Made by a program: the position numbers and the translations under genes. From NCBI RefSeq assembly GCF_021209385.1, contig NZ_JAJOIL010000038.1, positions 1 through 53,094 on the forward strand: a DNA stretch of 53,094 nucleotides, given 5' to 3'. The first letter of the stretch is position 1, and every line of letters starts with the position of its first letter. This stretch comes from Seleniivibrio sp. Lineage in GTDB: Bacteria > Chrysiogenota > Deferribacteres > Deferribacterales > Geovibrionaceae. The notes under the pieces were generated by a model that was not told the origin of the DNA, did not search any database, and was given only the letters and a program-made list of their open reading frames with translations. Of the stretch, positions 14,602 to 37,793 are shown piece after piece.

Positions 14602-15010
14602 CACCCGCGGCTTCACCCTTGTGGAGCTTCTGGTTGTAATGGTTATTATAGGTCTCGGGTTCGTCTCCCTGTCGCCGTCACTGGCTGACAGAACCGTGAA
14701 AAGCGGCGGGGACGAATCCTTTTTCAACGACATCATAAAATCACAGTTAAAGGCTGCAAAAGATCTTAACCGACAGGTGTTCATAAAAGGAACGCTCGGC
14801 ACCGACAGCCTTGTTCTGTCCGACGGTACCTCTGTGACCATTCCTTTGGGTAAAGTTGACAAGGTGAAGGTCAACGACAAAAATGTCAACGGTATCGAAT
14901 ACAATATATATTTCTATCCCGACGGCATCTTTGACGATTTTGAAATTGACATGTCAGACGGCAAGATTGTGGAATCCTATCCCATGATAGCCACGGCGGT
15001 GATTAAATGA
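14585..15010 (+). CDS. gspH: T2SS minor pseudopilin GspH
   Basis: Minor pseudopilin. The prepilin motif TRG^[14 protein letters not shown] with Glu5 is near the N-terminus. The remaining 115 residues are a small beta-rich domain with little conserved sequence, as is usual for GspH. The length of 141 residues is short but acceptable. The start overlaps the gspG end by 17 bases. Assignment as GspH rests on position between gspG and gspI and on the motif. Confidence 0.85.
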
Positions 15011-19146: not shown

Positions 19147-20196
19147 TCATTTAAACAGTTGGAGGTATTCCCCGTAACCTTCCTTTTCCAGGTTTTCTTT
19201 CGGTATGAAGCGCAGAGCCGCAGAGTTTATGCAGTAGCGCATACCGCCCTTATCTTTCGGACCGTCTTCAAAAACATGCCCAAGGTGAGAATCGCCGTAT
19301 TTGCTGCGCACTTCCGTACGTTTTGAAAACAGTTTAAAGTCACTCTTTTCAGTAACCATGCTTTTATCAATGGGTTTTGTGAAGCTCGGCCATCCTGTGC
19401 CGGAATCAAACTTGTCCCTTGAGCTGAAAAGCGGTTCACCTGTGGCTATATCAACATAGATACCGTCTTTATGGTTGTCCCAGTATTCATTGTTGAACGG
19501 GCGTTCTGTCCCTTCCTGCTGAGTAACGCTGTATTGAAGGGGAGTAAGCTTTTTCTTAAGTTCGCTTTCCGCCGGTTTGTTATATTTCTTATTCACTTTC
19601 TTCTCCTCTTTTCCCCATGTGCGCTCTATGTATCCCGCTCTGCCGGAGCCGACTTTATATCTGTCATAATGATCCTTGTTGGTGCGGAAATAATCCTGAT
19701 GATAGTTTTCTGCAACATAGAATTTTTTAGCGGGAAGAATTGCGGTCGCAATGGGTGATTTGAACTTGCCCGATTTTCCGAGCGCATCCTTTGACTTTTC
19801 AGCCACAGCCTTTTGCTGAGGGGTTGTGTAGAACACTGCCGTGAGATACTGGGTGCCGCGGTCGGCAAACTGTCCGCCGTCGTCTGTCGGGTCAATATTC
19901 TTCCAGAATATCTCAAGAAGCCGTTCATATTTTACCTTCGCAGGGTCGTAAATTACGCGCACAGCTTCGTAATGCCCTGTTTTACCTGACGAAACCTGCT
20001 CATATGTCGGGTTTTCAGTTTTGCCTCCGGTATATCCTGCGGAAACGTCCTTAACTCCGTCCAGAAACGAAAAAGGAGGCTCCATACACCAGAAACAGCC
20101 TCCTGCAAATATCGCAGTTTCATACTTCGCCGCGTTTGCCGAGGGTGCAACACAGAACATCATAAGCATCGGTATTATATATTTTGAATATCTCAT
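19147..20196 (-). CDS. msrAB: Exported bifunctional methionine sulfoxide reductase MsrAB
   Basis: Repairs both S- and R-methionine sulfoxide in envelope proteins. The start at 20196 is chosen over one 12 codons upstream because GAGGTG lies just ahead and a clean signal peptide (about 1-22, ending SANA) results. The MsrA domain has GGCFWC with catalytic Cys34 and a second Cys37. The MsrB domain ends with [11 protein letters not shown] and catalytic Cys322. MsrB lacks the zinc CxxC pairs (the position reads [10 protein letters not shown]) and has no second Cys, so its regeneration route is unclear. Length 349 residues. It is transcribed divergently from the Gly-rich/ECF gene group. Confidence 0.93.
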
Positions 20197-20251
20197 AGAC
20201 ACCTCATATGAACTAAGATAGCTTTGACGCAAAAAAGTCCTATAGTTTTTT

Positions 20252-20414: not shown

Positions 20415-20798
20415 ATGAGAAAAATTATTGCAGTTTTAACAGTGGCTATGATGGTTCTGGCAGCGGGACAGGCACTCGCTAGAGGCGGCATGGGCGGACA
20501 TGGCGGCGGAAACGGACACGGCGGTTCTTCTTCATCAGGAGGCTCTTCATCAGGAGGCTCTTCATCAGGTGGTTCCTCCTCCGGTGGTTCCTCCTCCGGT
20601 GGCTCATCTTCAGGCGGCGGCTCTCCTTCATCTGGAGGCAGCTCTTCATCTGGCGGACATGGCGACGGCACAGGCACACACTCCATGGACGGAACGGGTC
20701 TCGGCAGTATGTACAACCATGACATAAACCACCCCGCCACAGACGACGACACCACTGACGAAACAACAACAGAAACTGATCCTTCTTTCTCAATGTAG
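20415..20798 (+). CDS. Secreted Gly/Ser-repeat protein
   Basis: No family is recognised. The 127-residue protein has a clear signal peptide (about 1-22, ending ALA). A Gly/His-rich stretch (RGGMGGHGGGNGHGG) and six tandem SSSGG repeats (residues 39-68) follow. The tail is Asp/Thr-rich and acidic. The low-complexity composition suggests a flexible, disordered envelope or extracellular polypeptide, and the GGHGG pattern could bind metal. A good Shine-Dalgarno (AAGGAGA) and the ECF-type promoter upstream support real expression. A second signal-peptide protein with a Gly/His-rich tail lies at 22195, bracketing the sigma/anti-sigma genes. Confidence 0.75.
   Translation: MRKIIAVLTVAMMVLAAGQALARGGMGGHGGGNGHGGSSSSGGSSSGGSSSGGSSSGGSSSGGSSSGGGSPSSGGSSSSGGHGDGTGTHSMDGTGLGSMYNHDINHPATDDDTTDETTTETDPSFSM
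20529..20618 (+). repeat. Six tandem 15-base repeats encoding SSSGG
   Basis: In-frame 15-base units (variants of TCTTCATCAGGAGGC) repeat six times inside the secreted Gly/Ser protein gene. The first copies are nearly identical and later ones (TCCTCCTCCGGTGGT) drift at synonymous positions. Such an array can expand or contract by slippage in whole codon multiples. Confidence 0.85.
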
Positions 20799-20808
20799 TG
20801 AGAAACAT

Positions 20809-20837
20809 TTGGCGGGGGCTTCCGCCCCCGCTATAAT
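20809..20837 (+). promoter_or_regulatory. Sigma-70 promoter ahead of the ECF gene with hairpin spacer
   Basis: TTGGCG (20809-20814), exactly 17 bases, then TATAAT (20832-20837) form a plausible promoter. Its spacer is the GC-rich hairpin listed separately. The predicted transcription start falls at about 20844, the A of the sigma factor ATG, implying a leaderless message. No Shine-Dalgarno is seen before that ATG (AATAAGCAT). Confidence 0.45.
20812..20831 (+). terminator. GC-rich hairpin after the Gly/Ser protein gene
   Basis: GCGGGGGC-TTCC-GCCCCCGC is a perfect 8-base stem with a 4-base loop, 14 bases beyond the stop codon. It is followed by TATAATAAG rather than a T-run, so it could be an attenuating or mRNA-stabilising hairpin rather than a full terminator. 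Confidence 0.55.
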
Positions 20838-20843
20838 AAGCAT

Positions 20844-21326
20844 ATGAAACACAACACAGCACTGACGGCTTTTTTTGAACAGAACAGGCAAAAGCTTTTT
20901 GCCTATCTGGTAAGACTTTCCGGAGACACCCACGAAGCGGAGGACGTCTTTCAGGACACGTTTATCAGATATGCGCAGTCCTATCCTGATCAGCAAAATC
21001 CGGCACTGCTTTTCACAGTGGCAAAGAGCATTTTTCTTGACGGCAGACGCAGACACAGGTTTTCCGAAATGCCGGAAGGGTTTGAACCGACTGATGAACA
21101 AAGCCCCGAAAGCATTGTGATGTGCCGACAGGCACAGAACAGGCTTAAAACTGCCATGAACAGTCTTCCGCAGGAAGAACGGGAACTCCTTGCAATGGCA
21201 GGAGGGGAAGGACTGAAATACGATGAGATAGCAAAGGCGGCGGGGATATCCGTTGCCAATGTTAAGGTCAGGGTACACAGAGCAAGACAACGCCTGCGTT
21301 CCTTACTGGAGGTTTCCGATGGATGA
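20844..21326 (+). CDS. ECF-family RNA polymerase sigma factor
   Basis: Alternative sigma factor of 160 residues with the two-domain ECF layout. Sigma region 2 is at about residues 8-75 (YLVRLSGDTHEAEDVFQDTFIRY) and region 4 at about 105-155 (LPQEERELLAMAGGEGLKYDEIAKAAGISVANVKVRVHRARQRL). It is most like the small ECF proteins paired with membrane anti-sigma factors. The next gene overlaps it by eight bases and has an anti-sigma-like N-terminus. The ATG lacks a Shine-Dalgarno but sits exactly where a promoter directly upstream would start transcription. Likely targets include the AAC-N16-CGT promoter at 20349. Confidence 0.9.
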   Translation: MKHNTALTAFFEQNRQKLFAYLVRLSGDTHEAEDVFQDTFIRYAQSYPDQQNPALLFTVAKSIFLDGRRRHRFSEMPEGFEPTDEQSPESIVMCRQAQNRLKTAMNSLPQEERELLAMAGGEGLKYDEIAKAAGISVANVKVRVHRARQRLRSLLEVSDG

Positions 21327-21885
21327 CAGAGATTTACTTATAAGCCAGTATATCGACAACGAACTGAGCCTTGAAGAAAAGGCTGAATTTGTCAAAGAGA
21401 TAAATATTGACGATGCTTTCTGCGCCGAAACACTCTCTATGCTGGACAGTGAGCTTCTCATGGCGGGCATGATACCTGATGCGCCCCCTGTTCCTGAGAT
21501 AAAGCCAAAACGCGGACGCATCCTCACACCGGCGTCGGTTATGTCATTCACAGCGCTGGCAGCGTCACTTCTGGTTGCTTTCAAAGTTTTCATGTTTACG
21601 CCGGAGGCAGCACAGCAGCCGACCGACAGATACAGATTTGTCATACACGTTCCCGAAGCGCAGCATGTTGCCCTTGCCGGAAGTTTCTCCGACTGGCAGA
21701 GTATAGACATGCGTCCGGTGGGCAACGGATACTGGCAGGTCAGCGTTCCTCTGGAAAAGGGCGAATATACTTACACATACATACTTGACGGAAAAATAAA
21801 AATAGCCGACCCTGCTTCACCTGCGAAACAGGTTGACGATTTCGGCGGAGAAAACTCCGTAATAACCATAGGGAGCGATATCTGA
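21319..21885 (+). CDS. Membrane anti-sigma-like protein with CBM48 domain
   Basis: 188 residues from the ATG at 21319, preferred over the upstream in-frame ATG because CTGGAGG spaces to it and it overlaps the sigma gene stop. Residues 1-40 (LISQYIDNELSLEEKAEFVKEI) resemble the N-terminal helices of anti-sigma factors, without the zinc HxxxCxxC motif. A membrane helix follows at about 70-93. Residues 105-185 match the CBM48/isoamylase early-set glycogen-binding domain (VALAGSFSDW, then YTYTYILDG). The predicted topology puts the anti-sigma part inside and the carbohydrate-binding-like part in the periplasm. Family knowledge supports each domain; the signalling role is inferred. Confidence 0.75.
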   Translation: MDDRDLLISQYIDNELSLEEKAEFVKEINIDDAFCAETLSMLDSELLMAGMIPDAPPVPEIKPKRGRILTPASVMSFTALAASLLVAFKVFMFTPEAAQQPTDRYRFVIHVPEAQHVALAGSFSDWQSIDMRPVGNGYWQVSVPLEKGEYTYTYILDGKIKIADPASPAKQVDDFGGENSVITIGSDI

Positions 21886-22193
21886 AATATTTCACGATTC
21901 TGCTCGTTATCTTTATGACAGGCTGCGCAGCGGCCGAATTTAAAACGGAAGGCTCTGTAATGAAGGGATATTTCCGTGTAAAAGACGCGAACAGCGTAGC
22001 GTTCTACTCGTCTTCAGACGGGTTCACAAAGAACGAAGCCGTTAAAGACGGCAAAAAATGGACGGTGACAGTGCCTAAAAACGGCGAATTCACCTATTAC
22101 CTCGAAAAAGACGGCGAAATCTACGTCCCTGACTGCGAAATGAAACAGCAGGACGATTTCGGCGGAACCGTCTGTGTTTATCAGGAGGATTGA
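21882..22193 (+). CDS. Small lipoprotein related to the CBM48 domain of its neighbour
   Basis: The first ATG (21915) would leave only MTGC ahead of the lipobox cysteine, too short for a signal peptide. Starting at CTG (21882) gives a proper lipoprotein signal (KYFTILLVIFMTGC) of 15 residues before the Cys. It overlaps the previous stop as CTGA and has AGGGAG just upstream, so CTG is proposed as the start (103 residues). The mature part mirrors the end of the preceding protein (W-V-VP, GE-TY, DG-I, KQxDDFGG), suggesting a duplicated early-set domain. It may assist the neighbouring membrane protein in the periplasm. Function unknown. Confidence 0.65.
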   Translation: MKYFTILLVIFMTGCAAAEFKTEGSVMKGYFRVKDANSVAFYSSSDGFTKNEAVKDGKKWTVTVPKNGEFTYYLEKDGEIYVPDCEMKQQDDFGGTVCVYQED

Positions 22194-22194
22194 A

Positions 22195-22989
22195 ATGAAG
22201 TTTCTGGCAATATGCATCATGATGCTGACAGCCGCAACGGCGTTTGCCGATATATACGATGACCTTGGGCGCACTGCCGAGAAGAACGGTGCGGAAAAGA
22301 CGCTGACGGCAAAGCTTACGGAACGCACCAGAGAGGCGAAATATTCTCAGGAAAGCATTTCCGCCATTGAGAACGCACTGAGCGTGCAGATAGGCATGTC
22401 CGCAACAAGAGTCAGCGAAAAGGTGCTTGAGGGAATAGCAAAACGCGTTCAACAGCAGGCGGTTGCAAACGCCGCGCTTAAAGTAAGAGCGCGCTATGAA
22501 ACGGCATACGCAGTTGCTAAACAGGTCGGATTAAAGGGCAAACAGGCGGAAAACACGGCAGACATAGCCGCGGACGCTCTGGCGGCAGGTGCAAACGAAG
22601 CATCTATGATAAAAACAGCTAAACGCCTCTCCGCAATGCAGAAGGAAAAAGAACAGTACACTGTAGCAGTGATGGCATTCTACAGGGATATGCTCCGCTA
22701 CGGGGTAAAAGAAACAACAGCGGCGAGCATAGCCGACGAATCTCTGAACAATCTGTCTGCGGAACAGATAACCGAATACAGACATCATTTCATGAAAAAT
22801 GCGGGGAACAACGCCCAGAGTATGGCGGAATCCATGTGTGACAGTATTGAACACGGAAATTCTGCATCTTCAATGGGTTCAGGAGGACACAGCGGAAGCG
22901 GCGGACATAGCTCCGGCGGAAGCGGAACAGGCGGCGGTTCAGGCGGCGGCGGACATGGCGGTGGCGGTGGACACGGAGGACAGCACTGA
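22195..22989 (+). CDS. Secreted helical protein with Gly/His-rich tail
   Basis: No family recognised. The ATG at 22195 has AGGAGG six bases upstream and gives 264 residues with a signal peptide (about 1-18, ending AFA). Residues 19-225 are charged and Ala-rich, predicted mostly helical (AAKNAx-type stretches such as VQQQAVANAALKVRARYETAYAV). The last 35 residues are Gly/Ser/His low complexity (GGHSSGGSGTGGGSGGGGHG). The tail resembles that of the secreted protein at 20415, so both may share an export route or partner, possibly the T2SS encoded next door. It closes the five-gene group, six codons or fewer from each neighbour. Confidence 0.7.
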   Translation: MKFLAICIMMLTAATAFADIYDDLGRTAEKNGAEKTLTAKLTERTREAKYSQESISAIENALSVQIGMSATRVSEKVLEGIAKRVQQQAVANAALKVRARYETAYAVAKQVGLKGKQAENTADIAADALAAGANEASMIKTAKRLSAMQKEKEQYTVAVMAFYRDMLRYGVKETTAASIADESLNNLSAEQITEYRHHFMKNAGNNAQSMAESMCDSIEHGNSASSMGSGGHSGSGGHSSGGSGTGGGSGGGGHGGGGGHGGQH

Positions 22990-36767: not shown

Positions 36768-37793
36768 TCAAACCTCTCTGCTGAGCGGCAGACGGAATGT
36801 AAAAAGCGTCCTGCCCGGCTCGCTCTCAACATCGAAAGCGCCTTTATGTCTGTGAGCAACAATGTCGTAAGAGATATTAAGCCCCAGTCCCGTACCTTCC
36901 CCCACGGGTTTGGTTGTAAAGAACGGGTCGAAGACCTTGTGCATATTATCAGCCGAAATACCGGGACCGTCGTCCTCAACAGAACAGACAGCCATTCCGT
37001 CTTCCGTCCACGTTCTGACTGTTACACGTCCCGCAGTCTCTCTTTTCTGACCTTTTATCGCCTGAACAGAGTTGAGTATTAAGTTTAAAAGAACCTGATT
37101 GATCTCGCCGGCATTGAACTCAAAATCGGGAACGTTCCCAAGTATCAGCTCAACGGCAGCAACAAATTTTGCCTGACCGGACACTATTGCGGCAGTGGTC
37201 TGCACACTGCTGTTCAGACTGCCCGTTTTAAAACTTCCGCCGTCTATACGGGCAAACGCCAGCAGATTATTCACGATGCCTGATACACGCTTAAAACCGT
37301 CAGCGGATTCAGTGAAAATGTCTTTTGTGTCCTGAAGTATATTGTCTATTTTATATTTTGCACGGAGCTCCGCCGTTGTCTCTTTTCCGACAGCGCTCTC
37401 CAGAATTTTTATATAGCTCCAGACGGAAATGCTGTAGTTTTTGAGTGCTTCAAAATTTCCGGCTACAAAACCGATGGGGTTATTGAGTTCATGTGCGATT
37501 CCCGATGCAAGCTGACCAAGGGCGGCAAGCTTCTCCTGACGAATCATTACTGAACGGGCGGCATATACGTTCTCACAGCTCCGGCTTTCGGCGTCTTTCA
37601 GAAGCTCTTCCAGATAAGCCGAGCGCTCTTTTGACCGCCTGAGTTCGGTATAAGTTTCAGCTACCGCCTTTGCCGCGAACAAAGTTTCAGGTGAGGCATA
37701 CTTTTCTATGAGTGACTCAGCATAGGACGCGAATTCATACGATGATTCCGGTCCGGACTCCAGCATACCTATGAATTGTGCTATGTCAGACAT
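36768..37793 (-). CDS. Soluble sensor histidine kinase
   Basis: 341 residues without membrane helices, so a cytoplasmic sensor. After an N-terminal helical region of about 95 residues with no recognised sensor fold comes the H-box LGQLASGIAHELNNPIGFV with phospho-His101. The N-box (NQVLLNLILNSVQAI), G1 (VEDDGPGI), F-box (DPFFTTKP) and G2 (GTGLGLNISYDIV) follow. The Asn-Pro after the His places it in the HPK4 (NtrB/ZraS-like) class. It is the first gene of an operon with two response regulators, so one kinase may feed both. Confidence 0.93.
   Translation of the reverse strand: MSDIAQFIGMLESGPESSYEFASYAESLIEKYASPETLFAAKAVAETYTELRRSKERSAYLEELLKDAESRSCENVYAARSVMIRQEKLAALGQLASGIAHELNNPIGFVAGNFEALKNYSISVWSYIKILESAVGKETTAELRAKYKIDNILQDTKDIFTESADGFKRVSGIVNNLLAFARIDGGSFKTGSLNSSVQTTAAIVSGQAKFVAAVELILGNVPDFEFNAGEINQVLLNLILNSVQAIKGQKRETAGRVTVRTWTEDGMAVCSVEDDGPGISADNMHKVFDPFFTTKPVGEGTGLGLNISYDIVAHRHKGAFDVESEPGRTLFTFRLPLSREV

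Follow-up and report, generated by a model that had tools for sequence, protein, structure and literature searches.

A lipoprotein gene probably translated from a CTG codon that overlaps the anti-sigma factor stop codon in an ECF sigma factor operon of Seleniivibrio sp.

The stretch of DNA analysed here (the window, 53,094 nucleotides of contig NZ_JAJOIL010000038.1) belongs to the genome of a Seleniivibrio sp. (G000; 42 contigs, 2.9 Mb), and four genes of a conserved module lie on its forward strand. The first gene (20,844–21,326) encodes an ECF sigma factor with matches to Pfam Sigma70_r4_2 (E 2e-15) and Sigma70_r2 (E 1.6e-9). The second (21,319–21,885) encodes a protein of 188 amino acids (AA) with matches to AMPK1_CBM (E 1.6e-9) and CBM_48 (E 1.6e-7), in which a cytosolic N-terminal part and one membrane helix (approximately residues 72–93, by eye) are followed by an extracytoplasmic E-set/AMPK-beta-like CBM48 domain. 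The third (21,882–22,193, stop codon at 22,191–22,193) encodes a predicted lipoprotein of 103 AA, a putative E-set paralogue of the C-terminal domain of the second, and the fourth (22,195–22,989), which starts at ATG with AGGAGG 6 nt upstream, encodes a secreted protein that is helical and has a tail rich in Gly, Ser and His. The second gene adjoins a sigma factor gene in 23 of 23 loci, and this position, together with the N-terminal part and the membrane helix, suggests that its product is a membrane-bound ECF anti-sigma factor. The zf-HC2 model was seen in only three of 22 homologues and there below cut-off, which points to a divergent anti-sigma domain.

Several features surround the module. 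A Gly/Ser-rich secreted protein with GGSSS repeats is encoded directly upstream of the sigma factor gene (20,415–20,798), and weak relatives of it occupy the same position at some, not all, related loci. At 20,809–20,843 a G+C-rich palindrome, GGCGGGGGC..GCCCCCGC, is located between TTGGCG and TATAAT; this TATAAT ends 6 nt before the ATG of the sigma factor, which has no Shine-Dalgarno (SD) sequence. A hairpin of a G-run and a C-run, with differing stems, appears by eye to be present upstream of the sigma factor gene in all 11 family genomes inspected, and in seven of them TATAAT follows it immediately. A leaderless sigma factor mRNA or an operator is possible at this site. On the minus strand, an ORF at 19,147–20,232 contains GCFWCME and a later MsrB-like part and looks by eye like an MsrA-MsrB fusion; a gene of envelope oxidation repair would adjoin a module whose lipoprotein carries an invariant pair of cysteines.

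The anti-sigma gene ends in GAT ATC TGA, with its stop codon at 21,883–21,885, and the lipoprotein frame is opened by CTG at 21,882–21,884. The last two bases of this CTG belong to the stop codon and its C occupies the third position of ATC, the last Ile codon of the anti-sigma gene, giving a CTGA overlap at 21,882–21,885. An SD-like AGGGAG (21,870–21,875) lies 6 nt before the CTG, in which the longest match to the canonical anti-SD is the 4-nt GGAG. An earlier note, made from the sequence alone, had proposed that this CTG is the start codon, citing the overlap and the spacing of AGGGAG, and both are borne out with the qualification that only GGAG pairs. Read from the CTG, the frame gives LKYFTILLVIFMTGCAAA... 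and the N-terminus LKYFTILLVIFMTGC, in which a K/R n-region, a hydrophobic stretch and a lipobox Cys were recognised by eye; the predicted lipoprotein signal peptide, also assigned by eye, comprises 14 AA before the lipobox Cys (21,882–21,923). Between the upstream in-frame stop and CTG 21,882 there is no ATG, GTG, TTG, CTG, ATT, ATC or ATA codon. In-frame ATT 21,897 and CTG 21,900 were rejected as starts by eye, as neither would leave a charged n-region and both are too distant from the SD; ATT 21,897 is moreover replaced by GCA in two sister species (G002 and G003). The 80-nt RNA around the CTG has a predicted fold of −23.7 kcal/mol, which was calculated without a shuffle control and is unused as evidence.

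In the window's genome, ATG 21,915 (21,915–21,917) is the only standard start codon close to where the frame begins, and a cytosolic protein of 92 AA would be made from it. This start is very improbable: the codon specifies lipobox residue −3 and is Leu (CTT) in both G002 and G003, the protein would begin MTGC... without a signal peptide, although the signal peptide and the lipobox Cys (Cys-15) are present in 23 of 23 homologues, and by eye no SD lies at a fitting distance. The claim of the earlier note that only the CTG yields a complete lipoprotein signal holds.

A search covered 59 genomes, 50 of them from the phylum, and lipoprotein homologues were found in 23, all from the same phylum. 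Their starts, assigned by the position of the overlap and the signal peptide, are CTG in three, TTG in nine, ATG in nine, GTG in one and an ATA at the site in one. The CTG is found in G000, G002 and G003, sister species of the same genus, and TTG, within TTGA, in the nine other genomes of the family. The 4-nt overlap NTGA is hence present in 12 of 12 family genomes, with N being C or T and TGA invariant, and the G at alignment column 27, within AGGGAG, is likewise invariant among the 12; the second residue of the lipoprotein is K or R in all of them. The GTG of G048 also lies in a 4-nt overlap. An assembly error behind CTGA was rejected, as the same four bases stand in the separate records of G002 and G003, and in these two genomes the stretch from the upstream in-frame stop to the lipobox Cys contains no ATG, GTG or TTG. 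The conserved CTGA/TTGA overlap and the want of an alternative start in two sister species support the CTG, and translation of the lipoprotein can be placed at CTG 21,882 with high confidence from comparative sequence evidence. Standard annotation would shorten the gene, and the signal peptide would be lost. The lipoprotein tree combined with the codons describes the change from TTG to CTG as a single event.

The earlier note had also named homologues with an ATG start elsewhere as evidence that would speak against the CTG. Such homologues do exist (9 of 23, in other families), but their ATG opens the same signal peptide just past the anti-sigma stop, outside the overlap, which supports the position of the start: the codon was changed, not the site. 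The same nine genomes indicate that the system can in general do without a weak start. They also bear on a −1 shift at the end of the anti-sigma gene, by which the two conserved frames, overlapping by 4 nt, would be read into one fused protein. This possibility is scarcely credible, given that no slippery heptamer was seen by eye at the junction, that in those nine of 23 genomes the lipoprotein gene has a separate ATG beyond the anti-sigma stop, and that fusion would bury the lipobox inside the protein. In G031 (73% complete; L017, minus strand) the position of the ATG of its sister G012 is taken by an ATA, which may be either a second near-cognate start, a sign of an upstream start inside the anti-sigma gene, or a sequence error.

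A control sample of 435,962 bases of the window's genome, comprising 21 stretches (20 and the window), was screened with a simple coding filter, and 53 NTGA junctions passed, namely 32 ATGA, 12 CTGA, seven TTGA and two GTGA. In seven of the 12 CTGA junctions an ATG or GTG follows within 12 nt downstream, five of them being CTGATG, and one more, in L091, is followed by TTG (+21) and ATG (+30). Two others (L081 and L086) look by eye like one gene split by an indel, and the CTGA at 37,299 on the minus strand of the window opens a frame of 84 codons that is doubtfully coding, with GTG only at +51. The remaining one is the lipoprotein gene at 21,882. CTG starts as a general habit of the genome are thus not supported by this 436-kb sample. 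The two split genes, a malic-enzyme-like gene in two overlapping frames near 16,738 of L081 and a LysM-type lipoprotein gene in two overlapping frames near 14,880 on the minus strand of L086 (both by eye), look like cases of single-base indels, either assembly errors or pseudogenes. The statement of the earlier note that CTG starts are rare in bacteria agrees with the available part of PMC5622118, where CUG arose from 2 of 61,358 ancestral AUG, 1 of 5,080 GUG and 1 of 2,468 UUG starts. Initiation complexes on CUG are described as less stable than those on AUG, GUG or UUG in the accessible text of PMC11497404.

Both Pfam models, AMPK1_CBM and CBM_48, match 22 of 22 anti-sigma homologues, and the nearest solved chain by sequence is AMPK beta-1 (1z0n, E 3.8e-12), with which the domain aligns. 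As in the glycogen-binding domain of AMPK beta/CBM48 (PF16561, PF02922), the equivalents of W100 (W126) and N150 (N179) are kept, each in 22 of 22, with Phe in place of L146; W100 is the sugar-contact Trp and, together with W133, one of the two stacking tryptophans of AMPK beta. Unlike AMPK beta, the anti-sigmas have an aromatic residue at the W133-equivalent position in none of 22. The lipoproteins differ from AMPK beta in other respects: the W100-equivalent is Phe in 16 and Tyr in seven of the 23, so that the aromatic character is kept and the Trp is gone, the N150-equivalent is variable, and two extra cysteines, Cys-85 (codon 22,134–22,136) and Cys-98 (codon 22,173–22,175), are invariant in 23 of 23 and form a candidate disulfide that is absent from the anti-sigma domain. 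No lipoprotein among the 23 matched the CBM48, AMPK1_CBM or CBM53 models of Pfam at E ≤ 0.1, and the few Pfam matches of these proteins are weak and scattered. A search of the PDB with the lipoprotein profile returned nothing meaningful (best E 0.13), and a search of the G000 proteins against NCBIfam returned weak or generic matches only.

The earlier note had drawn attention to a pattern common to both proteins (GE.TY, DG.I and KQ.DDFGG), and this is substantiated by alignment. Comparison of the two family profiles in hhalign gave a probability of 98.6 (E 5.5e-16 in a single comparison, 84 columns), and direct BLASTP gave 30 of 90 identical residues (E 3e-8 in one comparison). When 384 genomes were searched with the lipoprotein profile at E ≤ 1e-4, 27 matched, being the 23 and four from outside the phylum, and the anti-sigma was the second match in 18 of the 23. 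Profile search, hhalign and BLASTP together rule out a chance likeness of the two domains. Structure models of the lipoprotein and of the anti-sigma domain, three sequences each, were of low confidence (mean pLDDT 53.8 and 37.0), and the presumed shared fold consequently rests on the sequence profiles. The cytosolic part and the membrane helix are absent from the lipoprotein, in line with the loss of the anti-sigma part that the earlier note had suspected. With good confidence, the lipoprotein can be taken for a paralogue of the extracytoplasmic E-set domain of the anti-sigma that has diverged from it. The duplication of a CBM48 domain, as it had been called, stands as far as descent is concerned and is doubtful for function, because the want of any CBM48 or AMPK1_CBM match and the missing invariant Trp argue against a second carbohydrate-binding module and for an E-set paralogue.

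In a tree of 58 domains (91 columns) the 23 lipoproteins fall on one side of a branch with support of 99/94, and a tree in which they are held together with the phylum's own anti-sigmas has p 0.245 on this short alignment of 91 columns. The duplication is neither recent nor confined to the window's genome, being common to those members of the phylum in which the operon is found. Outside the phylum, the lipoprotein profile has its best match (E 5.8e-8) in a short E-set protein of G313 (L093, 2,372–2,851), encoded outside any sigma factor operon.

The order of ECF sigma factor, E-set anti-sigma and lipoprotein is kept in 23 of 23 loci. A relative of the fourth gene detected by tblastn comes right after the lipoprotein gene in 16 of these, and in the other seven an ORF that is, by eye, of similar make-up follows. 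The anti-sigma is present in 24 of 50 genomes of the phylum and the lipoprotein gene stands directly behind it in 23; in the 24th (G026) the anti-sigma gene is cut by the contig end. The anti-sigma profile matches 131 of the 384 genomes (phylum included), mostly through the E-set domain alone. Twelve out-of-phylum loci, drawn from the top matches and not at random, were inspected, with the neighbours of the E-set gene in L115 and L116 searched by profile only. An ECF sigma factor gene adjoins the E-set anti-sigma in nine of the 12, and six of these nine also have the fourth gene. A second E-set protein takes the place of the lipoprotein in two of the nine (G157 and G063) and none was found in the other seven, indicating that the anti-sigma can work without one. 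The module is therefore older than the phylum, with the second E-set protein being optional, and an invention of the latter by the Deferribacterota alone is not supported. A tree in which the second E-sets of G157 and G063 are held together with the lipoproteins is not rejected (p 0.344; 91 columns, with long branches). No description of this ECF module was found in the available portions of the literature on anti-sigma and glycogen-binding domains, AMPK1_CBM and sigma factors, ECF/CBM/lipoprotein combinations, or Seleniivibrio and ECF.

Within the family, N in NTGA coincides with the third position of the last Ile or Val codon of the anti-sigma, which is ATC in three, ATT in eight and GTT in one of the 12 genomes. 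A is found at this wobble base in 0 of 12, even though a terminal ATA would keep the anti-sigma unaltered and turn the lipoprotein start into ATG. ATA is the commonest Ile codon, accounting for 47.6% of 7,277 Ile codons in the 219 long frames taken from the genome sample and for 92 of 157 non-terminal Ile codons in the 12 family anti-sigma genes. Eight alignment columns qualified as Ile-rich (Ile or Val in 10 or more of the 12, Ile in six or more); the seven others have a third-base A in three to six genomes each, and the terminal column has none. The frequency of ATGA junctions in the genome (32 of 53) shows that the four-letter word itself is not avoided. The missing terminal A suggests that a weak, coupled start has been kept by selection; since the 12 genomes share ancestry and a single column counts as one observation, the pattern is a pointer and not a clean test. 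The ATG that the gene has outside the family speaks against such selection.

The best rival to such a reading, and a real possibility, is that the CTG is used without regulatory meaning, a weak TTG having drifted through the synonymous change of ATT to ATC and its low output being tolerated. One T-to-C event in the ancestor of the three sister species covers all CTG cases, and the available part of PMC5622118 reports more frequent start codon switching in fast-evolving genes; the lipoproteins show greater divergence (22–83% identity to the protein of the window) than the anti-sigmas (34–83%). Against drift, A is found at the wobble base in none of the 12, although ATA is so common and would give ATG; in the same part of PMC5622118, UUG switched to AUG in 43 and to CUG in one of 2,468 cases.

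We regard as moderately probable, taken as a whole, an explanation in which the CTG-started lipoprotein is translated by coupling, at a low ratio, and acts as an E-set partner of the anti-sigma. The ribosome that finishes the membrane-bound anti-sigma would terminate at TGA and, held by the upstream GGAG, would re-initiate with fMet at the overlapping CTG. Since CTG and TTG initiate poorly, the lipoprotein would be expected at a low and fixed ratio to the anti-sigma, while the next gene (22,195–22,989) has its own ATG and a strong SD. The lipoprotein probably originated from a duplicated extracytoplasmic E-set domain of the anti-sigma from which the cytosolic part and the membrane helix were dropped, after which a lipoprotein signal and the invariant Cys pair would have been gained and the sugar-contact Trp lost. 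Lipidated at the lipobox Cys, the protein could serve as a sensing or tuning partner that contacts the E-set domain of the anti-sigma in the envelope via the presumed shared fold, and this contact would set the timing of ECF sigma factor release. That the lipoprotein is a low-ratio partner of the anti-sigma is, taken by itself, a tentative proposal. In the available text of PMC10666635, short overlaps are enriched among genes for subunits of one complex (45.2% versus 5.6% in H. volcanii, 30.4% versus 6.8% in E. coli).

A further step would be to see the wobble base as an inherited rheostat, kept as a pyrimidine (ATT, ATC or GTT) and never A, by which TTG or CTG fixes a low ratio of lipoprotein to anti-sigma for an E-set hetero-complex that gates the ECF sigma factor, with Seleniivibrio-type species set one step lower through CTG; we consider this rather doubtful. 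It is likewise rather doubtful that the lipoprotein is an independent output of the operon, for instance an outer-membrane lipoprotein that, with the secreted Gly-rich protein, would bind a polymer of the cell surface. The operon does encode one, and in some genomes two, secreted Gly-rich proteins, position +2 is Ala or Ser in 23 of 23, as is usual for outer-membrane lipoproteins of E. coli, and alpha-glucan is bound by the relatives of the anti-sigma domain that are AMPK-like. Against this, the sugar-contact Trp position is occupied by Phe or Tyr in all 23, no CBM model is matched, and the gene is linked to the stop codon of the anti-sigma.

The preferred reading, a coupled E-set partner of the anti-sigma, has parallels in known systems. 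Operons of the RpoE-RseA-RseB type consist of a sigma factor gene, a one-helix anti-sigma with an envelope domain and a third envelope protein, and the operon of the window likewise comprises these three. RseB is soluble, has another fold and is no copy of the periplasmic domain of RseA, whereas the third protein here is a predicted lipoprotein that is paralogous to the envelope domain of the anti-sigma itself, with an overlapping CTG or TTG start. Start-codon tuning in an anti-sigma operon is known from rsbW of Listeria monocytogenes (PMC13068326), but there an ATG-to-ATT change, along with other changes, was laboratory-derived and lies in the anti-sigma gene itself, at a 17-bp overlap, in contrast to the natural CTG of the lipoprotein, which is fixed in three species at a 4-nt overlap. 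The same −4 nt geometry, with an upstream SD, is known for NTGA termination-reinitiation pairs with coupled translation in the available parts of PMC6728339, PMC10666635 and PMC12548453; unlike the present case, CTG or CTGA is absent from the main text of PMC6728339, CTG and TTG from the available text of PMC10666635, and CUG from that of PMC12548453. PMC4648390, in its accessible part, concerns eukaryotic reinitiation and was set aside.

The module comprises a sigma factor, an E-set anti-sigma, optionally an E-set lipoprotein, and a helical protein that is secreted. Starts at CTG are rare in nature, and the present case is backed by three species and by the silent-site argument. The locus moreover offers a silent change, from ATC to ATA in the anti-sigma gene, that would turn the CTG into ATG and bears on a possible role of weak coupled starts in setting the ratios of proteins in sigma/anti-sigma systems.
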